From: a bacterium
GTDB taxonomy: Bacteria > Actinomycetota > Acidimicrobiia > Spongiisociales > Spongiisociaceae
DNA: 64,000 nucleotides
Reading direction: 5' to 3'
NCBI GenBank assembly: GCA_028820935.1
Contig: JAPPHZ010000051.1
Location: 1 to 64,000 of the forward strand
This document shows positions 34,677-46,002 of the stretch, in pieces. Under the pieces are notes generated by a model. It ran no database searches. It was given only the letters and a program-made list of their open reading frames with translations, and was not told the DNA's origin. Both the position numbers and the translations under genes were made by a program. The stretch's first letter is position 1. Each line of letters opens with the position of its first letter.

Positions 34677-34769
34677 TAAACGGGTCTGCGCCGATGGTTG
34701 ACAGCGGCGCAGACCCCTCGTTACGGTGCCGGGGGTGGCGTCCGTCGTAAGCCACCCTGGAGAGAACCG

Positions 34770-35789
34770 TTGTCGTTCAAGCTCTCTAACGCCCTGAAGC
34801 GCAGCACCACCGGCATTGCCCGGACCGTCAGTGAGTACGAGAAGCGCTTTCGGACGACTCGGCGCGGCAACCGGGCGAGGACGGCGCTCGACCACAAGGA
34901 GGTCAACGATCTCTACTACGACGTGGTCACGGACTTCTTCGAGTTCGGGTGGGGCAGGTCCTTTCACTTCGCTCCTCGCGGCCCGGGGGAGAGCTTCAAC
35001 GCCTCGCTGGCACGGCACCAGCACTACCTGGCCCACAAGCTCCGGCTGGGGCCCGGGATGGTCGTGGCCGACCTCGGCTGCGGCGTCGGCGGGCCGCTCC
35101 TGGAGATCGCCCAGTTCACCGGAGCCCGGATCGTGGGTGTGAACAGCAACGCCTACCAACTCGAGCACGCCCGCAAGTACGCGGAGGAGGCGGAGCTGAC
35201 CCATCTGGCCGAGTTCATGCACTGCGACTTCCTCGAGGTGGACGCTCCCGACGGCTCGTTCGACGCGGTCTTCTCAATAGAGGCGACCTGCCACGCCCCG
35301 GACAAGGTGAGCATCTACGGCGAGGCGTTCCGCCTGCTGAAACCGGGGGCCTGCTTCGCTTCCTACGAGTGGTGCATGACCGACCGCTACGACCCCGAGG
35401 ATCCCCTCCACCGCAGGATCAAGGCTGACATCGAGCTGGGCGGCGGCATACTCGAGCTCGACGAGCGTAGAACCGTCGACGAAGCGCTGGTGGCGGTGGG
35501 GTTCGAGGTGCTGGAGACCAGGGATGTAATGGTGCCGACCGGTCCGTCGGTTCCCTGGTACCAGCCTCTGGCCGGTTCGGGGATCTCGCTGGCGACCTTC
35601 AGGAGTTCGAGGATCGGGCGCTCGGTCACCCAGGCCACGCTCAGGCTGCTCGAGGCCCTCCGCATCGCGCCCAAGGGATCGGTTCGGGTGTCGGAGACCC
35701 TCAACCTCTGCGCGGTGGCCCTGGTCGAGGCGGGCCGGCTCGGCATCTTCACCCCGGCGTACTTCATCCACGCCCGCAAACCGGAGTAG
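34770..35789 (+). CDS. Sterol C24-methyltransferase-like SAM methyltransferase
   Basis: About 339 aa from TTG 34770, which sits 5 bases after GGAGAG and aligns with the start of the family. It follows eukaryotic Erg6/SMT along its whole length: VTDFFEFGWGRSFHFAPRG, ARHQHYLAHKL, motif I VVADLGCGVGGPLLEIA, FSIEATCHAPDKVSIYGEAF, ASYEWCMTDRYDPEDPLHRR, PWYQPLAG and a C-terminal FTPAYFIHARKPE. SMT enzymes transfer methyl from S-adenosylmethionine to C24 of a sterol side chain. Bacterial homologues are known, but no sterol-synthesis gene is visible here, so it may act on imported sterols or another polyprenoid. There is no membrane segment. It is a single gene. Confidence 0.85.
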   Translation: MSFKLSNALKRSTTGIARTVSEYEKRFRTTRRGNRARTALDHKEVNDLYYDVVTDFFEFGWGRSFHFAPRGPGESFNASLARHQHYLAHKLRLGPGMVVADLGCGVGGPLLEIAQFTGARIVGVNSNAYQLEHARKYAEEAELTHLAEFMHCDFLEVDAPDGSFDAVFSIEATCHAPDKVSIYGEAFRLLKPGACFASYEWCMTDRYDPEDPLHRRIKADIELGGGILELDERRTVDEALVAVGFEVLETRDVMVPTGPSVPWYQPLAGSGISLATFRSSRIGRSVTQATLRLLEALRIAPKGSVRVSETLNLCAVALVEAGRLGIFTPAYFIHARKPE

Positions 35790-35865: not shown

Positions 35866-37053
35866 ATGGTGTGCAAGGATGAACTAGGCCTGCCGGCCGG
35901 CGCGGAGTTGGTGATCATCGGCGCCGGGATAGTGGGTGCCTCCACGGCGTTCTGGGCTGCCCGGGCCGGGCTGTCGCCGGTGGTGCTGGAAGCCCGGCCG
36001 GTTGCCGCCTCGCTCACCACCCCGGCCTCCACCGGAGCCTTCCGGCTGCAGTTCGACAACCGGGAGGAGACCGAGCTGGTGCGGGAGACGGTCGACCTGA
36101 TCCTGAACTTCGCCGAGATCACCGGCCAGGACGCGGCGCCCCTCGCGGTCAAGCAGCCGGGCTACCTCTGGGCGACCACGTCCGAGGACAGGGCTGAGAA
36201 GCAGCGCCGGCTGGTGGCTCGCCAGCACTCCTGGGGCCAGGCCGACATCGAGGTGCTGGCCGGAGACGAGGCCCGGCGCAGGTTCCCCTACCTGAGCCCT
36301 GAAGTGGTCAGCGCCCGCTACCGGGCGGATGACGGCTTCGCCGACCCCAGGGCTCTGACCCTCGGGCTGCTACAAGCGTCGGAAGCCCCTCTCCACCTTT
36401 CGTGCCGGGTGGTATCCCTCCGGGAACTCCCCTCTGGAGGACTTGACGTGGGTACGGAGACCGGTCACATCCGGGCCGAACAGGTCGTGATCGCCGCCGG
36501 GCCCTTCACGGCCAAGCTGGCCGCCCTCCTCGGGGTGGAATTACCGCTGGAGGTAAAGCGCCGCCACAAGGTGGTGGTGCCCGAGTTGGCGCGGGTCCCG
36601 CCCGATGCTCCCATGACCATCGATGACGACACCGGCACGCACTGGCGCCCCGCCCTGGCGGGTGCCGCACTGCTGGACGCCGCGCCCCGGGGGCCGGGAA
36701 GGGCGCCTGTGGAGGATATCCCTCCCAGCTCAGGCATGGCGTTCCGGGTGCTGGATCCCTCCAGTCCGGACGCCGCCGCCCGGATCAGTCCCTTCTGGGG
36801 CGAGGCTTGGAGGAGGGGAGAGCTCTCCTGGATGGTCCACTCCGGGCAGTACGTGATGAGTCCCGACCACCGCCCCCTGATAGGGCAGGCGCCGATCGGC
36901 GGGCTGTGGGTCAACAGCGGCTACTCGGGCCACGGCATCATGTGCTCCCCGGCAGGGGGTCGCATCCTGGCCGACCTGATCACCGGGCGACTGGAGGATT
37001 CACCCTTCGCCCTCGACCGGACCTTCGTGAAGAGAAGCCTGGACCAGATCTAG
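35866..37053 (+). CDS. FAD-dependent oxidoreductase (DAO family)
   Basis: A 395-aa flavoprotein with the N-terminal dinucleotide fold ELVIIGAGIVGASTAFWAARA and VVLEARPVAASLTTPAS, and the C-terminal PLIGQAPIGGLWVNSGYSGHG, typical of glycine/sarcosine oxidase-like DAO proteins. It would oxidise a secondary or tertiary amine to an imine, passing electrons to O2 or a carrier. TAGCTT lies 6 bases before its ATG, suggesting a leaderless message. A second, related gene is at 41816-42925. The substrate is unknown. Confidence 0.88.
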   Translation: MVCKDELGLPAGAELVIIGAGIVGASTAFWAARAGLSPVVLEARPVAASLTTPASTGAFRLQFDNREETELVRETVDLILNFAEITGQDAAPLAVKQPGYLWATTSEDRAEKQRRLVARQHSWGQADIEVLAGDEARRRFPYLSPEVVSARYRADDGFADPRALTLGLLQASEAPLHLSCRVVSLRELPSGGLDVGTETGHIRAEQVVIAAGPFTAKLAALLGVELPLEVKRRHKVVVPELARVPPDAPMTIDDDTGTHWRPALAGAALLDAAPRGPGRAPVEDIPPSSGMAFRVLDPSSPDAAARISPFWGEAWRRGELSWMVHSGQYVMSPDHRPLIGQAPIGGLWVNSGYSGHGIMCSPAGGRILADLITGRLEDSPFALDRTFVKRSLDQI

Positions 37054-37091: not shown

Positions 37092-38108
37092 TCAGGCGAG
37101 TTCGTCCAATAGCCGGATGACGAGCTGCTCGTCGTAGGGTTCGGGCTCGGTCAGGCGGTTGCCGAACCTGTCGAGGAGCATGAAGTCGGACGTGCTGTTC
37201 ATCCCGTAGTACTCCCAGGCGTCGCGTGCCTCGCTCCAGAGCGCCGTGAACGTGACCCCCTTCTCGACCACGAATTCCTGCGCGATCTCGAGAGTGCCGA
37301 CACCGCCGATTCCGATGACGGTGAGTCGGTTGGAGTGCTGCCGAGCGAACTGCTCGATGCCCGGGGCTTCCTCCCGGCACGTCTCTCAGAAGGGGGACCA
37401 GAACCAGAACATCAGGGGCTTCTCACCCTTGACGACCGATCGCAGGCTGATCAGCTCTCCGGTGGCCGCGTCGAACATCTCGATGTCGGGCACGTCATCG
37501 GAGATCGCGGTGGCGGGCGGCGCCGTCGTGGTAGTGGCCGGTGTCGCCGTAGTCGTGACGACCACCGTGGTGGTCGTGGTGGTCTCGGCCGCCGTGGTGG
37601 TGGTCGTGGTCTCGGCCGCGACGGTTGTGGTCGTGGTCTCGGCCGCCGTGGTGGTGGTCGTGGTGGTCTCGGCCGCGACGGTTGTGGTCGTGGTCTCGGC
37701 TGCGACGGTGGTCGTGGTTTCGGATGGCGCGGTCGTGGTGGTGGACGGGCCGGTGGTGTTTACTGTTTCCTCGGAGGTCGAGGCGGTCGTCGTGGACGTT
37801 GTCGTCGCCGAGGTGGTGGATATCGGTTCCGGCTCGGTCGTTCCGATGGTTGTATCGGGTGCCTCGGATGTAGTGGCCACGGTCGCCGCCGTGTCCGCAA
37901 CGGTGGTGGTCGCCTCTTCCGGAGCAGGGCTGGAGTCGATGGTGGTGCCCGGATCGGGGGGTGCTTGAGTGGTGGCAGGACCGGTGGCGTCTCCACCGCA
38001 GGACATGACCGCGCCGGCCAGTAGTGCCATAGCTATTACCGAACGGATCAGCCGCAAGTCCGCTCCGGGTACCTGGGGGTTGAGTGCCGGTCCAGGATAC
38101 CCCGCCAT
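37092..38108 (-). CDS. Thioredoxin-like lipoprotein with in-frame TGA at the first Cys of CxxC (selenoprotein candidate)
   Basis: Read through one TGA (37388-37386), the frame encodes 338 aa. From ATG 38108 there is a lipoprotein signal (RLIRSVIAMALLAGAVMSC), then about 130 residues of Thr-rich linker, then a TlpA/redoxin domain: PLMFWFWSPF, TGA (codon 241), ETCREEAPGIEQFARQ, LTVIGIGGVGTLEIAQEF and so on to the TGA stop at 37092-37094. Cys-type homologues read FWAPWCxxCRxEAP, so the TGA stands exactly where the first redox Cys belongs, leaving UxxC. The 97 codons after it stay open and keep the fold. Either selenocysteine is inserted or the gene is truncated by a TGC-to-TGA change. It would be an extracytoplasmic thiol/selenol oxidoreductase. 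No selA, selB or selD lies in the window. Confidence 0.65.
37341..37379 (-). promoter_or_regulatory. Candidate bacterial SECIS hairpins after the TGA
   Basis: Two stems follow the TGA. The first (37379-37358) is TGCC-GGG/CCC-GGCA with one bulged G and loop AGGAAGC, beginning 6 bases after the TGA. The second (37357-37341) is TCGAGC and GCTCGG around loop AGTTC, whose loop begins 34 bases downstream, within the spacing described for bacterial SECIS elements and with G at the second loop position. Neither proves recoding. Confidence 0.35.
37561..37720. repeat. Thr-codon-rich repeat in the lipoprotein linker
   Basis: Near-repeats of about 30-36 bases built on GTGGTCGTGGTCTCGGCC (plus strand) encode AAETTTTT units of a low-complexity extracellular linker. 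Such DNA can change length by slippage. It is coding sequence, not a CRISPR or regulatory array. Confidence 0.7.
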
Positions 38109-38186
38109 GACCACTAGGTTTCGAGGACGTGGCAATCGGGCATCGACATGGTCGAGCGCCGGCCGGCAACGATCTGGAGGATCGAG

Positions 38187-39134: not shown

Positions 39135-40691
39135 CTACTCCCGGATGATGGTCCGGGCCTGTTCCCGCACGTAGGAGCGCATGTACCAGGGGCCGCCGCT
39201 GCCCGCTCCCGAGGTGCCGGAACCCTTCCAGCCGCCGAAGGGCTGGATGTCGGGCCACGCCCCGGTGGTGGACCCGGCCCGGCGGTTGGCGTAGACCACG
39301 CCGGCCTGGATGCGCTCGAAGAACCGGTCGACCTCCCCGTCGGTGCCGGCGAAGACCCCGGCGGTGAGCCCGAAGATGGTGTCGTTGGCCTTGTCGATCC
39401 CCTCGTCCAGGGAGTCCACCGGAGTCACGGCCACGAAGGGCACGAACAGCTCCTTCTCCCAGATCCAGGTCTCCTCCGGCGCGGTCACCACGGTGGGCTG
39501 GACGAAGTTGCCCCGCTCCAGGTCACCGTCCGTGACCACCTCGCCCCCGGAGATGATCTCGCCCCCGGCTTCACGAACGGCCTCCACCGCCGACCGGAAG
39601 CGGCCCACCGCCTCCTGGTCGATGACGGGTCCAACGAAGGTGTCGCGGTTGCGCGGGTCGCCGACCCGGAGCTCGCCGGTCTTGTCGGCGAGCAGGTTGA
39701 CGAACTCCTGGAAGGCGGGCCTTTCCACGTAGACCCGGGAGTTGGCAGAGCACTTCTGACCCGACAGGCCGAAGGCGGCCCTCATCACCCCTTCGGCGGC
39801 CAGATCGAGATCGGCGCTGGCCGTGACCACCGCCGGGTTTTTCCCACCCATCTCGCACACCACCGGCTTGGGGCGACCGGCCGCCACCGTCCGGTACAGG
39901 TACATGCCGACGTCGTAGGAGCCGGTGAAGGTGACCCCGTCCACGTCGTCGTGATGGGCGAGCCGGTCGCCGGCCCCGTCGCCGCCGGTCACGACGTGCA
40001 GAGCACCGGCGGGCAGTCCGGCCCGGGAGAATATGTCGGCCAGCAGCAGCGATCCCAGGGCGCCGGTGTTGGAGGGCTTGAGGACCACGGTGTTGCCGGT
40101 GAGCAACGCCGCCGATGTGGGGCTGGCCACCAGGGCCATCGGAAAGTTGAAGGGGGAGATGATCGCCCACACCCCCCAGGGGCGCAGGACCGAATGGTTG
40201 GTGTCGCCCACCCCGTAGGCGCCCATGGCCGTTTCCATCCCGCCGGCTTCGTCCAGGCGGTCGCAGTAGTAGTTGGCGAAGGCCACCGCCTCCGAGACGT
40301 CCCCGAGCGCCTCGAGCCGGTTCTTGCCGATCTCCAGGCTCAGGAAGCCGGCCAGGAGGGGGGTCTCCTCGTCCATGATGTCGGCCGCCCGGCGGATGAT
40401 GGCCACCCGGTCCTGCCAGGGCGTTGCCTCCCACTCGGGTTGGAAGGCGCGGGCCGCCGCCACGGCCTCGTCGACATCGTCGTCGGAAGCCTGGGAATAG
40501 ACACCCACCACCACATCGGAGTCGATCGGGGAACTTTCCGTGTAGGTCTCGGCGGTGTAACGCTTCTCACCGTTGATCAGGAGGGGGTGCGTCTGCCCGA
40601 TCTGCGCGGTGGCGGCGGCGAGACCCTCCTCGTAGGCTTGATGGAGCGCCGGATCGTCCGCCGACATCGTGGCATAGGTGATCTTTCCCAT
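39135..40691 (-). CDS. Aldehyde dehydrogenase (P5C/semialdehyde type)
   Basis: A 518-aa NAD(P)-dependent aldehyde dehydrogenase from ATG 40691. Motifs in order: AIISPFNFPMALVASPTSAA, TVVLKPSNTG (cofactor Lys), GVTFTGSYDVG, catalytic Glu in VCEMGGKNPA, and Cys in GLSGQKCSANSRVYV. The C-terminal PFGGWKGSGTSGAGSGGPWY resembles 1-pyrroline-5-carboxylate dehydrogenases. It is divergent from a proline-racemase-like gene, with a FAD oxidase beyond. Together these suggest oxidation of glutamate or 2-oxoglutarate semialdehyde in proline or hydroxyproline breakdown, although homologues act on other aldehydes too. Confidence 0.88.
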   Translation of the reverse strand: MGKITYATMSADDPALHQAYEEGLAAATAQIGQTHPLLINGEKRYTAETYTESSPIDSDVVVGVYSQASDDDVDEAVAAARAFQPEWEATPWQDRVAIIRRAADIMDEETPLLAGFLSLEIGKNRLEALGDVSEAVAFANYYCDRLDEAGGMETAMGAYGVGDTNHSVLRPWGVWAIISPFNFPMALVASPTSAALLTGNTVVLKPSNTGALGSLLLADIFSRAGLPAGALHVVTGGDGAGDRLAHHDDVDGVTFTGSYDVGMYLYRTVAAGRPKPVVCEMGGKNPAVVTASADLDLAAEGVMRAAFGLSGQKCSANSRVYVERPAFQEFVNLLADKTGELRVGDPRNRDTFVGPVIDQEAVGRFRSAVEAVREAGGEIISGGEVVTDGDLERGNFVQPTVVTAPEETWIWEKELFVPFVAVTPVDSLDEGIDKANDTIFGLTAGVFAGTDGEVDRFFERIQAGVVYANRRAGSTTGAWPDIQPFGGWKGSGTSGAGSGGPWYMRSYVREQARTIIRE

Positions 40692-40772
40692 GGTGTATTT
40701 TCCTTTGAGCGAATAGCCGGAAGGGGAGCCCCGAAAATCTAGCATGCGAAGCCTCGATCCCGATCCCGCCGG

Positions 40773-41792
40773 ATGACGTTCGCCCGCCGCGTTCGTGTCG
40801 TCGACTCCCACACGGCCGGGGAGCCCACCAGGGTGGTGGTCGGAGGCTTCCCGGAACTGGCCGGCGGCACCCTGGCGGAGAAGGAGGCGGACCTTCTCGC
40901 TAACCACGCCGACCTGATGAGGTTGCTGGTCGGGGAGCCGCGGGGCCATGCGCCGTGGCATGCCGTCCTGCCTCTAGCGCCGCTCCACGCCGGCGCGGAT
41001 CTCTCCGTCCTGATCGTCTCCGCCCTCGGATCGCTCACCATGTGCGGGCACGCCCTGATCGGTACGGTCACCACCCTCCTTGAGACGGATCGGATGCCGG
41101 CCCGAGAGCCGATGACCGCGGTGGTGGTGGAGACCCTAAGCGGCCTGGTCAGAGCCGAGGCGCGGGTGGACGGGGGCAAGGTCCACTCCGTGACCTTCCG
41201 GGGAGTGCCGTCCTGGGTAGCGGTCACCGGGCTGGCGGTGGAGGTCGGCGGGCGGATCTTCGAAGTGGACATCGGGTTCGGCGGGATCTGGTTCGCCCTG
41301 GTACGGGTGGAGCAGACCGGCATGCCGATCGCGGTGGAATCCGTGCCCGGTCTCGTGGCGCTCAGCCATCGGATCCGGCTGGAACTCAACCGGACGCTCC
41401 GCGAACGATCCGGCCGGCCGCCCGGAATGCCCGGGAGGGTCGATCAACTGCTCTACGTCGGGCCGCCCACGAGCGCCGGGGCGCACGGGCAGAACCTGGC
41501 CACCTCGACGGGCCTCGGCTTCGATCGCTCCCCCTGCGGGACCGGGTGCTGCGCCCGCATGGCCTGGCACTTCGAGAGGGGAGAGATGGCGGTCGGGGAC
41601 ACCTTCGTCCACGAGAGCGTGCTCAACACTATGTTCACCGGGACGATCCAGGCCGAGACGGAGGTCGCCGGACGCCGGGCGATCGTCCCCACCATCACCG
41701 GTTCCGCCTACCTGACCGGCTTCAACGAGCTGGTCCTGGACCGCGAAGATCCCCTAGGCGCCGGCCTCTTCCTCCCCGCCGCCGGCGGCTGA
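40773..41792 (+). CDS. Proline racemase/4-hydroxyproline epimerase family protein
   Basis: A 339-aa cofactor-independent racemase or epimerase. Both catalytic Cys are present: SLTMCGHALIGT in the first half and DRSPCGTGCCARMAW in the second. The opening RVVDSHTAGEPTRVVVGG is typical. Having both Cys argues against the trans-3-hydroxyproline dehydratase subgroup, in which one Cys is replaced. The second motif ends CC rather than the usual TS, a small oddity. The neighbouring aldehyde dehydrogenase and FAD oxidase suggest hydroxyproline or proline use. Confidence 0.87.
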   Translation: MTFARRVRVVDSHTAGEPTRVVVGGFPELAGGTLAEKEADLLANHADLMRLLVGEPRGHAPWHAVLPLAPLHAGADLSVLIVSALGSLTMCGHALIGTVTTLLETDRMPAREPMTAVVVETLSGLVRAEARVDGGKVHSVTFRGVPSWVAVTGLAVEVGGRIFEVDIGFGGIWFALVRVEQTGMPIAVESVPGLVALSHRIRLELNRTLRERSGRPPGMPGRVDQLLYVGPPTSAGAHGQNLATSTGLGFDRSPCGTGCCARMAWHFERGEMAVGDTFVHESVLNTMFTGTIQAETEVAGRRAIVPTITGSAYLTGFNELVLDREDPLGAGLFLPAAGG

Positions 41793-41815
41793 CACCCTGG
41801 GAGCTGCGCGTCGTA

Positions 41816-42925
41816 TCAGATGACCGCGGTCTCCGGAAGGATGCGCCCGGTCTCGAAGCGGGCCATGTCGAAGGGGGACAGGTCGAAGGTCGGTTCCGAA
41901 CCGAGGACCAGCTCGGCAAGGTGCTCTCCCACCACCGGTCCCTGCTGGAATCCGTGGCCGCTGAACCCGGTGGCGTAATGCAGCCGATCTAGTCGCGGAG
42001 CGGTGCCGATGATGGCGTTGTTGTCGGGGGTCACGGCGTAATAGCCCCACCAGGTGTGGGTCACCTCCATCTCGGCCACGGCCGGCGCCCGGTTGATGAC
42101 GACCGGCGCCAGGTCCTCGATCGTCTGCGCCCGCCCGCCCATGGCCAGCCCCTCCGCCTCCCTGTGGAAGTAGAAGCCGGTGGCGAAGTCGATCACCAGC
42201 GGCAACCGGCGCGGGAAGGGGTCCGAGCCCCTGGTCAGCCAGATGTGGCGCTTCACCGCCCGCACCGGCATGCGGACGCCTAAAGGGGCCGCCAGCCGGG
42301 GGCTCCACACTCCTGCGGCCAGCACTACTTCGGGGGTCGAGACGAACCCGTTCGTGGTGGTCACGCCCCGTACCTGTCCGTTCGACACGTTGATTTCCGT
42401 CACCTCACAACCCTGGACGATGGCGGCGCCGTGGCGGGAGGCGGCCTGTGCGTAGCCGAGCGCCACCGACTCGGGCGTGCACGTGCCGTCCCATGGGCAG
42501 AAGGTGGCTGCCGCCACGTCGTGGATGCGGATTCCCGGCACCATGTCGAGCGCAGCCTCGGCGGTTATCAGTTCGGACGGCACGCCGAGCGACCTCTGCA
42601 GGGCTACCGCACGCTGGAAGGCGTCCACCTCGGATCGGCGCAGTAGGAACAGGTAGCCGTGCTGCTTGAGGTCGATGCCGGTCCCGAACTCCGTCTCGAA
42701 CCTCTCCAACCGACGGATGTTCTCGACGGCCATCCGGATGTTCAGCTCGTCCGAGAACTGGGCCCGGAAGCCACCGGCCGATCTGCCGGTGGAGCCGGAG
42801 CCGATGGTGTCCCGCTCCAGCACCGCCACCTTCACCCCTGCGGCGGCCAGGTGGTAGGCGGCGGACGCACCCATGATGCCGCCGCCGATGATCACTACGG
42901 CGGCGGAGGAAGGGAGTTCTGCCAT
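41816..42925 (-). CDS. FAD-dependent oxidoreductase (sarcosine/D-amino acid oxidase-like)
   Basis: A 369-aa flavoprotein. The FAD-binding fold is AAVVIIGGGIMGASAAYHLAAA then VAVLERDTIGSGSTGRSAGG, the SoxB-like pattern in which the flavin sits beside SxGxSxG. The C-terminus has AIIGTAPRLDRLHYATGFSGHGFQQGP, as in sarcosine oxidase beta and D-hydroxyproline dehydrogenases. It ends 24 bases from the convergent epimerase-like gene and follows the sulfatase pair by 33 bases on the minus strand. It could oxidise D-hydroxyproline from the epimerase or an N-methylated amine. Confidence 0.88.
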   Translation of the reverse strand: MAELPSSAAVVIIGGGIMGASAAYHLAAAGVKVAVLERDTIGSGSTGRSAGGFRAQFSDELNIRMAVENIRRLERFETEFGTGIDLKQHGYLFLLRRSEVDAFQRAVALQRSLGVPSELITAEAALDMVPGIRIHDVAAATFCPWDGTCTPESVALGYAQAASRHGAAIVQGCEVTEINVSNGQVRGVTTTNGFVSTPEVVLAAGVWSPRLAAPLGVRMPVRAVKRHIWLTRGSDPFPRRLPLVIDFATGFYFHREAEGLAMGGRAQTIEDLAPVVINRAPAVAEMEVTHTWWGYYAVTPDNNAIIGTAPRLDRLHYATGFSGHGFQQGPVVGEHLAELVLGSEPTFDLSPFDMARFETGRILPETAVI

Positions 42926-42958: not shown

Positions 42959-44488
42959 TCAGCCGACCGGCGGGTAGCGGGTGCGGGGGCCGGCGCCGGC
43001 CCAGTCCATGTGGTTGCGGATGTACTGGTGGGTGGCGTCGGTCGAAGGCGAGAAGTCCCACGAGTGGAGATCGCCTACCTCCATGGCGGCGTGGACGACC
43101 CGGCGCGCTCGCTGCGAGGCGAGCACCTGCTCCCGGATGGCGTCGCTGTCCCATCGCTCGGCCACCTCGGCGGCGAAGCCCGAGGCGAGGTCGGCATGGT
43201 CGGGATCCTCCGCCAGGTTGTTCCGCTCCAGCGGGTCCGCCTCCACGTCGTACAGCTGGGCCGGGTCGGTGTCGCAGTGGATGTACTTGTACCGCCCGCG
43301 GCGGATCATGAACATCGGGTGGGAGGTCATGACCCCCGTGTACTCGGAGGTGGTCTCGTCCACGGGGTCGCGGCCTCCGGTGGCGCTCTCCCAGAGGCTG
43401 CGGCCGGCGGGAGGCCGGGCCGGCTCGGGCCAGGGCCCGGCGCCGGTGACCATGTCAGACAGGGTGGGCAGCATGTCCAGGAGGGAGCAGGCGTTGGGGA
43501 CCGTGCTGTTGGTGATGTCGGGTCCGGCCATGATGAGCGGTACTCGCGCCGAGCGCTCGAAGAACGACATCTTGAACCACACCCCTCGGTCCCCCAGCAT
43601 GTCGCCGTGGTCGCTGGTGAAGATGACGACCGTGTTGTCGAGTTGTCCCGTCTCCTCCAGGACGCGCACGAGCGTGCCCAGCCACCAGTCGACGTAGCTC
43701 GTGTTGGCGTAGTAGGCGCGGCGGGCGTTCCGGCACTGGTCCTCCGTGTAGCCGACCGTATCGATCTCGATGCCGTGGCGGATGCGGACCGTGTGCGGGT
43801 CCAGCGACGCGACCGGTGGCACATCGGGCAGGTCGATCTCGTCGTGGTCGTACAGGTTCCACCATTCGGGTCGGGCCACGTAGGGATCGTGGGGGTGGAT
43901 GAACGAGGCGACCAGGAAGAAGGGCCGCTCGTCTGTGTCGCGCGCCAGGTCGTAGAGATGGCGGACGGCTGCCGAGCCGACCTCCTCGTCGTAGTCGATC
44001 TGGTAGGTGGCCAGCGCCTGGCCTGCCTCCGACAGGCTGGTCATGTTGTGCCACCACTTGCCCATCCGGCCGGCGGCCTCGTCCCAGTTGGCGGTCCAGG
44101 CGAAGTCGGCCGGGTACACGTCGGTGGTGAGCCGTTCGTGGAAGCCGTGGAGCTGGTCGGGCCCCACGAAGTGCATCTTCCCCGACAGAGTGGTGCGGTA
44201 GCCCGCCAGCCTCAGGTAGTGGGCGAGGGTCGGGATCGACGCCGGCAATTCCGAGCCGTTGTCCCACGCGCCGATCGCCGTGGCCGGCTGGCCCGTCAGC
44301 ATCGAGTACCTGGACGGGGCGCACAGCGGGTAGGGGCAGTAGGCGGTGTCGAAGCGGACCCCCCGCTCCACCAGGGCGTCCATCGCCGGGGTGCGGACCA
44401 CCGGATGCTCGTAGGCGCCGGTGAACTGCGGCGCCAGCTGGTCGGCCATCACCAGCAGGATGTTGGGCTTGGCCGAGGAGCCGGCCAT
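42959..44488 (-). CDS. Choline-sulfatase-like sulfatase (copy 1)
   Basis: A 509-aa type I sulfatase from ATG 44488. The metal-binding start is KPNILLVMADQLAPQFTG and the core CPLCAPSR places the Cys for formylglycine conversion at residue 56. GYRTTLSGKMHFVGPDQLHG and TTDVYPADFAW closely resemble choline-sulfatase (BetC). FTSDHGDMLGDRGVWFKMSFF carries further metal and substrate residues. It has no signal peptide, so it is cytosolic, as expected for choline-O-sulfate. The start shares a base with the stop of its tandem paralogue (TGATG). Maturation needs a formylglycine-generating enzyme, which is encoded at 62063-62977. Confidence 0.9.
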   Translation of the reverse strand: MAGSSAKPNILLVMADQLAPQFTGAYEHPVVRTPAMDALVERGVRFDTAYCPYPLCAPSRYSMLTGQPATAIGAWDNGSELPASIPTLAHYLRLAGYRTTLSGKMHFVGPDQLHGFHERLTTDVYPADFAWTANWDEAAGRMGKWWHNMTSLSEAGQALATYQIDYDEEVGSAAVRHLYDLARDTDERPFFLVASFIHPHDPYVARPEWWNLYDHDEIDLPDVPPVASLDPHTVRIRHGIEIDTVGYTEDQCRNARRAYYANTSYVDWWLGTLVRVLEETGQLDNTVVIFTSDHGDMLGDRGVWFKMSFFERSARVPLIMAGPDITNSTVPNACSLLDMLPTLSDMVTGAGPWPEPARPPAGRSLWESATGGRDPVDETTSEYTGVMTSHPMFMIRRGRYKYIHCDTDPAQLYDVEADPLERNNLAEDPDHADLASGFAAEVAERWDSDAIREQVLASQRARRVVHAAMEVGDLHSWDFSPSTDATHQYIRNHMDWAGAGPRTRYPPVG

Positions 44489-46002
44489 CAGCCGAGCGCC
44501 GGGAGGTGGTAGCGGGGGCCCACCACGTTCCAGTCCATGTGGTTGCGGACGTACTCGTTGGCGGCGTCTCTGGCCGGCGCGTAGTCCCAGGAGACCGGGT
44601 CGCCGGTCGCCATGGCGGCGTGCACCAGCTGCCGGGTGCGCTGGGAGTCCAGCACCCGCTCCCGGATGGAGTCGCTGTTCCATCGCTCGGTCACCTCGAT
44701 GGCGAAGCCCGAGGCGAGGTCGGCATGGTCGGGATCCTCCGCCAGGTTGTTCCGCTCGAGCGGGTCGGCCTCCATGTCGTACAGCAGGGGTGGGTCGGTG
44801 TCGCAGTGGATGTACTTGTGGCGTCCGCGGCGGATCATGAACATCGGGTGCGTAGTCATCTCGGCCATGTACTCGCAGGTGGTCTCGTCGACCAGATCCC
44901 GCCCTCCGGCGGCGCTCTCCCAGAGGCTGCGGCCGGCCGGTGCTCCGGCCAGCTCAGGCCACGGTCGGCCGCCACCGGACACATCCAGCAACGTGGGTAA
45001 CAGATCCAGCAACGAGCAGGCGTTGGGGACGGCGCCCTGGACGATGTCGGGGCCCGCCACGATGAGCGGAACCCGCGCCGAGCGCTCGAAGAACGACATC
45101 TTGAACCATGTGCCGCGGTCGCCCAGCATGTCGCCGTGGTCGCTGGTCACGATGACCACCGTGTCGTCGACCTGTCCCGTCTCGGTGAGGGCTTGGAGGA
45201 GGGCGCCCACCCACGAGTCGAAGTAGCTCGTGTTGGCGTAGTAGGCATGGCGGGCGTTGCGGCATCCGGCCTCGTCGTAGCCGACGCTCTCGGCCTGGAC
45301 GCCCCGGCGGATGCGCCGGGTGTGCGAGTCGAGAGAGTCGTGGGGTGGAACGTCGGGCAGGTCGATGTGGTCGTGGTCGTAGAGGTCCCACCACTCGGGA
45401 CGGGCCACGTAGGGATCGTGGGGATGGATGAAGGAGGCGACCAGGAAGAAGGGCCGCTCGTCGGCGTCGCGGGCCATGTCGTAGAGGTGCCGGACGGCGG
45501 CGAAGCCCACCTCCTCGTCGTAGTCGATCTGGTAGGTCGCCGATGCCCGGCCGGCCTCTGCCAGGCTGTCCATCCCGTGGAACCACTTGTCGATCCGGTC
45601 GTCTGACGACTCCCATTCGGGTGTCCAGGCGAAGTCCGCCGGGTAGATGTCGGTGGTCAGGCGGCGCTCGAACCCGTGCAGCTGGTCCGGGCCGACGAAG
45701 TGCATCTTCCCCGACAGCGTGGTGCGGTAGCCGGACAGCCGGAGGTAGTGGGCGAGGGTCGGTACCGACGCCGGCAGCTCGGCGCCGTTGTCCCAGGCGC
45801 CGATGGCCGACACGGGTTGTCCTGTCATCATCGCGAACCGGGAAGGGGCGCACAGCGGCGACGGGCAGTAGGCGGCGTCGAAGCGAGCCCCCCGCTCCAC
45901 CAGGCTGTCCATGGCCGGGGTACGGACCAGCGGATGCTCGTAGGCGCCGGTGAAGTGCGGCGCCAGCTGGTCGGCCATCACCAGAAGGATGTTGGGGCGC
46001 AT
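44488..46002 (-). CDS. Choline-sulfatase-like sulfatase (copy 2)
   Basis: A 504-aa tandem paralogue of the next gene, clearly similar along its whole length. The formylglycine Cys is residue 51 in SPLCAPSR, and TLSGKMHFVGPDQLHG and TTDIYPADFAW are shared. The two differ in the middle third (for example SSDDRIDKWFHG versus AAGRMGKWWHN) and in the metal-loop neighbour FKMSFFERSARVPLI only slightly, suggesting related but perhaps different sulfate esters. It starts 26 bases after the polyketide synthase stop, so it may share its transcript. Choline-O-sulfate hydrolysis would supply choline for betaine and sulfate. Confidence 0.9.
   Translation of the reverse strand: MRPNILLVMADQLAPHFTGAYEHPLVRTPAMDSLVERGARFDAAYCPSPLCAPSRFAMMTGQPVSAIGAWDNGAELPASVPTLAHYLRLSGYRTTLSGKMHFVGPDQLHGFERRLTTDIYPADFAWTPEWESSDDRIDKWFHGMDSLAEAGRASATYQIDYDEEVGFAAVRHLYDMARDADERPFFLVASFIHPHDPYVARPEWWDLYDHDHIDLPDVPPHDSLDSHTRRIRRGVQAESVGYDEAGCRNARHAYYANTSYFDSWVGALLQALTETGQVDDTVVIVTSDHGDMLGDRGTWFKMSFFERSARVPLIVAGPDIVQGAVPNACSLLDLLPTLLDVSGGGRPWPELAGAPAGRSLWESAAGGRDLVDETTCEYMAEMTTHPMFMIRRGRHKYIHCDTDPPLLYDMEADPLERNNLAEDPDHADLASGFAIEVTERWNSDSIRERVLDSQRTRQLVHAAMATGDPVSWDYAPARDAANEYVRNHMDWNVVGPRYHLPALG

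Follow-up and report, generated by a model that had tools for sequence, protein, structure and literature searches.

The 64,000-nucleotide stretch of DNA analysed here (the window), from a genome of the order Spongiisociales whose assembly comprises 3,302,434 bases and is 97.37% complete, encodes a homologue of yeast Erg6 (SMT1), and elsewhere the same genome encodes a second sterol methyltransferase homologue (SMT2), a reductase of the ERG4/ERG24 type and an hpnCDE squalene operon. We consider it probable that SMT1, SMT2 and the reductase tailor the side chain of acquired sterols, probably those of a host, and that SMT1 is a true sterol C24-methyltransferase. In the scheme that we propose, a cell that makes no sterols would import them, the likeliest source being a sponge host. 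SMT1 would transfer the methyl group of SAM to C24 of a delta24-sterol side chain; with SMT2 and the membrane reductase it would make up a tailoring kit of three parts, in which methylation, once or twice, precedes the reduction of a double bond. The product may be a membrane sterol that replaces hopanoids, or the kit may modify the sterol pool of the host. Family membership, the canonical region I of SMT1, the joint occurrence of the three genes within the order and the absence of a cyclase are read from sequence; we infer what the substrate is and where it comes from, how the steps follow one another, which bond is reduced and what purpose the kit serves.

A sterol C24-methyltransferase homologue in the window

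The initial annotation had described the gene as an Erg6 homologue from end to end, and comparison with protein families and with Erg6 bears this out. SMT1 matches the Pfam domains Sterol_MT_C (PF08498; 81.8 bits, 3.9e-23, cut-off 21.7) and Methyltransf_11 (65.7 bits), contains all four of the motifs GWGRSFHF, EATCHAP, YEWCMTDRYDP and PWYQPLAG (Table 1), and is 40.8% identical over 360 alignment columns to an unverified sequence of yeast Erg6 (EC 2.1.1.41). The CMAS domain also exceeds its cut-off (45.5 vs 27 bits), far under the Sterol_MT_C score. The DLGCGVGG sequence is the SAM-binding motif I of class I methyltransferases. An open reading frame check places the TTG codon at 34770-34772 in frame with the stop codon at 35787-35789, and the frame is open further upstream, as far as a TTG at 34698; the start at 34770 is favoured because the matching upstream stretch of a relative (L009) contains an in-frame stop.

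Table 1. Features of SMT1 and its downstream neighbour, in window coordinates
Feature	Coordinates	Strand	Remarks
SMT1, sterol C24-methyltransferase family gene	34770..35789	+	339 aa, TTG start, TAG stop
Region I FEFGWG, matches Erg6 Y81-E-Y-G-W-G86	34938..34955	+	alignment
DLGCGVGG, motif I of SMT1	35070..35093	+	sequence, alignment
EATCHAP motif, identical in Erg6	35280..35300	+	sequence, alignment
YEWCMTDRYDP motif (Erg6: YEWVMTDKYDE)	35364..35396	+	sequence, alignment
PWYQPLAG motif (Erg6: PWYYPLTG)	35553..35576	+	sequence, alignment
Sterol_MT_C domain (PF08498) in SMT1	35592..35786	+	85.2 bits at these coordinates
FAD-dependent oxidoreductase (DAO family), downstream of SMT1	35866..37053	+	Pfam, locus comparison

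Region I of SMT1 carries F81, F83 and W85 (Erg6 numbering), all aromatic, and the three positions are aromatic in 17 of the 17 SMT1-type rows of the alignment; the aromatics of the YEYGWG region of Erg6 are described as stabilising the cation in C24 methylation (PMC6997595). With that Erg6 sequence SMT1 has domains and motifs in common, and it differs from Erg6 in being bacterial, in having Phe for Tyr at positions 81 and 83, and in belonging to a genome without an ergosterol pathway. SMT1 is a genuine relative of Erg6 and the SMT family, for which C24 methylation is predicted.

A fold search with the predicted model of SMT1 (pLDDT 84.0, pTM 0.85) finds class I methyltransferases, among them MitM (Z 27.0) and geranyl diphosphate C-methyltransferase (Z 25.1), and no SMT structure stands among the best 50 rows listed; PDB 6f5z, named '24-sterol C-methyltransferase', matches SMT1 residues 106-231 only (1.9e-07). 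The fold-search matches show a shared catalytic fold, nothing further. MitM, RebM-like, geranyl diphosphate methyltransferase and mycolic-acid enzymes all match at Z 22-27, as they would if a generic SAM methyltransferase (of the cyclopropane, tocopherol, sarcosine or small-molecule kind) had been misread as an SMT, but the Sterol_MT_C domain and the 41% full-length identity to the Erg6 sequence argue against this, and intron-free bacterial genes whose order recurs at eight of eight same-genus loci argue against a eukaryotic contaminant contig; we regard either explanation as extremely improbable. Nor did placement among generic cyclopropane or tocopherol methyltransferases, envisaged at the outset as a refutation, occur in Pfam, NCBIfam, the Erg6 alignment or the tree. 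A generic methyltransferase was also sought through NCBIfam and rejected, as no model came near its cut-off among the best 25 of 27 matches (best 48.0 of 550 bits).

All five same-genus pairs of SMT1 have dN/dS of 0.120-0.262 (Nei-Gojobori); the gene is therefore maintained by selection. The copy of the same-genus metagenome-assembled genome (MAG) 277c_8 (L007:8001-9023) contains one in-frame stop, which may mean that the gene is decaying or that the assembly is in error, and eight of the nine copies of the genus are free of stops in the matched part.

Neighbours of SMT1 in the window

SMT1 is flanked by a rhodanese-like gene and by the DAO oxidoreductase, which follows it at 8/8 same-genus loci examined and at 0/3 loci of genus g45; none of the window neighbours tested recurs at the three g45 loci with SMT1. 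The families scanned identify no sterol gene among its window neighbours (eight proteins), and a sterol gene cluster, looked for at the loci of SMT1, SMT2 and the reductase, was not found.

Other genes of the window are recorded here in their own right. At 39135-42925 an aldehyde dehydrogenase, a proline racemase family protein and a DAO oxidoreductase adjoin, a trio that would suit the breakdown of hydroxyproline (from collagen or spongin); this specificity is only a guess, because none of the three proteins reaches an NCBIfam cut-off. Two adjoining genes for sulfatases of the choline-sulfatase type lie at 42959-46002, the first matching TIGR03417 (648.8 bits vs a cut-off of 433.45) and the second containing a Choline_sulf_C domain. 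On the minus strand, 37386-38135 is a Thr-rich, low-complexity open reading frame of 249 aa without a Pfam match, the product of which is perhaps secreted.

A second methyltransferase paralogue

SMT2 (G000:C11, L003:10030-11166, 379 aa) shares 44% identity with SMT1 across 300 residues and matches Sterol_MT_C at 58.1 bits, above the cut-off of 21.7. In a midpoint-rooted tree of 33 rows, the SMT1 and SMT2 types split at 100/100 and Erg6, represented by the one sequence used for the alignment, falls on the SMT1 side; one row labelled as SMT1-like (L058 of genome G105) groups with SMT2. SMT2 is under purifying selection, as judged by dN/dS, and is 65-67% identical to the copy in the Nitrospira MAG bin75.

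Its chemistry is less sure than that of SMT1, because Met occupies Erg6 position 81 in 15 of 15 SMT2 rows. One or both enzymes might methylate another position of the sterol, such as C4, as in the nematode 4-SMT, or C26: the 4-SMT is described as being without the region I aromatics of 24-SMT (PMC6997595), and SMT2 is without the first of them. SMT1 does not share this feature of the nematode enzyme, as it has all three aromatics in every one of its 17 rows, and all 15 SMT2 rows have Trp at 85 as well as an aromatic residue at 83. A different site of methylation, open above all for SMT2, is on these grounds very unlikely.

At four of the eight g45 SMT2 loci examined, SMT2 has on one side an acetate-kinase-like gene with a gene for a small membrane protein, and on the other pyruvate-dehydrogenase-like genes with an SDR, all gene names being assigned by eye. 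At loci L067, L068, L069 and L070 of this genus, the small membrane protein beside SMT2 weakly matches ERG4_ERG24 in some cases.

A reductase of the ERG4/ERG24 type

The reductase of the window genome (G000:C38, 395 aa) matches PF01222 at 109 bits (cut-off 27), and its best sequence match is the delta14-sterol reductase 4quv (2.5e-29). Its predicted model (pLDDT 77.4) superimposes on 4quv over 355 residues (Z 30.0, rmsd 3.6; next row Z 9.8), with a Foldseek value of 3.9e-14. By domain and modelled fold it is of the ERG4/ERG24 type, for which reduction of a sterol double bond is predicted; NCBIfam models assign it no name. It has its fold and C-terminal motifs in common with 4quv and with the ERG24 proteins of bacterial sterol clusters, and unlike the latter it is not surrounded by a CYP51-ERG24-cyclase cluster. 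Identity to characterised or cluster-borne delta14 reductases is 26-32%, and in the tree the reductases of its type form a branch of their own (99/97), apart from cluster ERG24. Within its genus and in genome G003, the main copy shares 92-97% identity with it, and dN/dS is 0.07-0.14 in five pairs (four within the genus and one with G003).

Tandem duplicates of ERG4/ERG24-type reductases were observed in a Chloroflexi MAG (L127:8725-11139) and an Acidimicrobiia MAG (L128:8526-10829); both MAGs encode SMT1 as well, and an hpn operon that includes a cyclase.

Missing cyclase and an operon for squalene

The initial annotation had noted that the stretch holds no sterol pathway and had proposed a search of the genome for squalene epoxidase and oxidosqualene cyclase. 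For these two entry enzymes the observation extends to the whole genome, since neither the squalene/oxidosqualene cyclase domain PF13243 nor the squalene epoxidase domain PF08491 has a match in it; a fused epoxidase-cyclase of bin75 (L013), used as a positive control, scores 184.6 bits against PF13243 and 78.7 bits against PF08491. PF13243 is likewise absent from all 15 genomes of the family and exceeds the cut-off in only one of the 138 genomes of the order (G072, which is without an SMT); weak matches below the cut-off occur in four more, none of them an SMT carrier. FA_hydroxylase (PF04116), the domain of the ERG3/ERG25 type, has no match in any of the 138.

The window genome probably makes squalene by way of hpnCDE, to judge by sequence matches to HpnC (286 bits, cut-off 250.45) and HpnE (387.6 bits, cut-off 283.05), which pass, and to HpnD (254.1 bits), which is under its cut-off of 278.6. 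A pair of strong SQS_PSY genes, neither below 199 bits, is found in 17 of the 138 order genomes, namely the 16 SMT carriers and G007, a member of the genus without SMT and reductase; weaker SQS_PSY matches occur in 18 others. The gene order hpnC-hpnD-hpnE-prenyl (FPP) synthase is found at 16 of the 17 loci, and the last locus meets the end of its contig. None of the 17 genomes with the hpnC-hpnD pair, the window genome included, has a cyclase over the cut-off. Because no cyclase stands at any of the 17 hpnC-hpnD loci either, the squalene has no known outlet. As a separate observation, the prenyl synthase that follows hpnE in the window genome (L099:12033-13028, C11) matches the family 2 encapsulin cargo polyprenyl-transferase model at 394.2 bits, with a cut-off of 450.

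Two genomes outside the list of the order retain longer operons: G139 (SB0677_bin_11) has hpnC-hpnD-hpnE-prenyl synthase-cyclase, and G138 (COS3_bin_17) has hpnC-hpnD-hpnE-cyclase and a radical-SAM gene that is hpnH-like by eye. Their SMT1 proteins are 66% (G139) and 64% (G138) identical to that of the window, and each genome encodes two adjacent reductases (62-68% identity). Because these operons run on to a cyclase, the cyclase looks to have been lost in the window's group. For the window genome a hopanoid substrate was considered and rejected, as the cyclase was not found.

Distribution across the order

SMT genes are present in 16 of the 138 genomes and in 3 of the 61 genera of the order: nine of the ten genomes of the window's own genus, one of the two in genus g3, and six in g45, a count that covers the SMT carriers listed and not the genus total. 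Assigned by best match among order genomes, SMT1 occurs in 12, SMT2 in 15 and both in 11. PF01222 exceeds its cut-off in 15 of the 138 genomes, all of them SMT carriers, and falls below it in 14 more, including G105, the sole SMT carrier of the order without a passing reductase. Fisher tests of co-occurrence give p = 4e-19 and 5e-20 with related genomes treated as independent, values that are not usable as probabilities because only three or four lineages lie behind them. The co-occurrence of SMT with squalene genes may reflect a functional link or one shared lifestyle. Among more distant genomes, G141 (Rhodothermales) has an SMT and neither cyclase nor reductase.

Sponge hosts and a symbiont with a sterol cluster

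Of seven sample codes looked for in papers, two gave a confirmed host origin, those of the MAGs 277c_8 and bin75. The same-genus MAG 277c_8 is from the sponge Petrosia ficiformis by its matching specimen code, 277c (PMC8941161), and Nitrospira bin75 (L013, accession MPMZ) is from the sponge Aplysina aerophoba (PMC5649159). RHO1_bin_64 is probably from Rhopaloeides odorabile, because RHO denotes that sponge in another paper.

In bin75 an SMT1-type and an SMT2-type gene are direct neighbours within a sterol cluster that also encodes the epoxidase-cyclase fusion, a P450, ERG24, a Rieske oxygenase and an NAD-dependent dehydrogenase; window SMT1 is 48% identical to its bin75 counterpart over about 300 residues. 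Next to this SMT pair, an odd fusion joins a GPP34 (Golgi phosphoprotein 3) domain to a P450 that follows it (L013:3886-5955); it may tie the P450 to membranes. A study of Ircinia describes ERG6 and ERG24 as enriched in symbionts and often scattered, and names Acidimicrobiia among the classes with full sterol clusters (PMC9531527), so that some Acidimicrobiia may make sterols; none of the 138 genomes of the order is such a case.

A sponge symbiont with both SMT types in a sterol cluster is also what one would expect if the three genes were a relic of ancestral de novo sterol making and alkylation, the early genes having been lost and SMT1 now decaying or minor; the in-frame stop in the 277c_8 gene and the lack of SMT in G007, of the same genus, would fit such a history. 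It is nevertheless highly improbable in view of the dN/dS values, which show SMT1, SMT2 and the reductase to be under purifying selection, the eight stop-free copies of SMT1 among the nine of the genus, and the 92-97% identity of the main reductase copy within the genus.

Sterols or squalene as substrate

Because squalene is probably made, it is the most serious alternative substrate. SMT1, SMT2 and the reductase could act on the cell's own squalene to give methylated, partly saturated squalenes, as in Botryococcus braunii, of which TMT-1 and TMT-2 methylate squalene, so that SMT-like squalene methylators exist (PMC3533583). The ends of squalene carry a Me2C=CH- group, as does the delta24 sterol side chain, and the hpnC-hpnD pair, with its cyclase-less operon, is found in every SMT carrier of the order. 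However, the TMTs are described as having variant sterol-binding domains, and region I of SMT1 is near-canonical; both SMT types occur in the sterol cluster of L013; G007 has hpnCDE yet neither SMT nor reductase; and a shared lifestyle alone could explain the co-occurrence. We regard squalene as an unlikely substrate of the three enzymes. That methylated, partly saturated squalenes serve as a membrane lipid, the enzymes being a bacterial counterpart of the Botryococcus TMTs and having evolved in sponge symbionts upon loss of the hopanoid cyclase, is a distinctly unlikely extension. In a bold variant, the symbiont would give squalene to its host, receive sterols back and alkylate them.

Sterol is a better reading of the substrate than squalene. 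For acquired sterols speak the Pfam domains and motifs, the region I aromatics, the missing cyclase and epoxidase domain, the restriction of the reductase to SMT carriers, the joint presence of both SMT types in the bin75 sterol cluster and the link of 277c_8 to Petrosia ficiformis. Against them stand the hpnC-hpnD pair in all 16 SMT carriers, which fits squalene too, Met81 of SMT2, the cyclase kept by G138 and G139, the absence of cyclase and reductase from G141, a reductase that is only 26-32% identical to delta14 reductases and nameless in NCBIfam, and a host origin confirmed for just two MAGs. The initial annotation had suggested host or environmental sterols, or a hopanoid-like substrate: the former is the best-supported reading and a hopanoid made by the cell is not, as no cyclase was found in the window genome, nor any over the cut-off in the other 16 genomes with the hpnC-hpnD pair. 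As a whole, that annotation is partly supported.

Relation to known systems

Bacterial SMTs, those of sponge symbionts included, are already published; the conserved kit is the new part. Brown et al. 2023 (PMC10070321) tested 24 metagenomic bacterial SMTs and found 20 active on sterols, 8 of the 10 from sponge symbionts and 12 of the 14 from the environment; 23 of the 24 fall in two bacterial clades separate from the clade of sponge SMTs; an oxidosqualene cyclase accompanies 13 of the 24 in the gene cluster or MAG; and three make the 24-isopropyl chain, one of them encoded by a Chlamydiae MAG that has no other sterol gene. Those SMTs resemble the present ones in being of the Sterol_MT_C type and from uncultured bacteria, many of them demosponge symbionts. 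Unlike what is described there, an SMT pair and a reductase here recur in genera without a cyclase, a comparison made by description (PMC10070321).

Botryococcus braunii TMT-1 to TMT-3 are SMT-like enzymes whose targets are the double bonds at the ends of linear triterpenes, and are set apart from SMT1 by the description of their sterol-binding domains (PMC3533583). A precedent for orphan enzymes of host sterols is Coxiella, in which the sterol-reductase homologues Stmp1 (CBU1206) and CBU1158, in a pathway otherwise missing, are thought to use host sterols (PMC8787468); unlike this intracellular pathogen, as described there with reductases only, the window genome has two methyltransferases that accompany its reductase. 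A literature search that left most subscription papers outside its scope found no report of a conserved SMT pair and reductase without a cyclase, nor of an SMT pair tied to a cyclase-less hpnCDE operon.

Implications for sponge sterols

Fossil steranes have been taken for the oldest signal of animals, and who left them depends on which organisms make the sponge sterols with alkylated side chains, a question still open, which bacterial SMTs already complicate (PMC10070321). If squalene were the substrate, its products would be a new class of bacterial lipids. If the three genes are indeed a kit for tailoring acquired sterols, host and bacterial steps would be mixed within one sterol, genomes that bear SMT need not make sterols, and the sterol profile of a whole sponge need not mirror the enzymes of the sponge.
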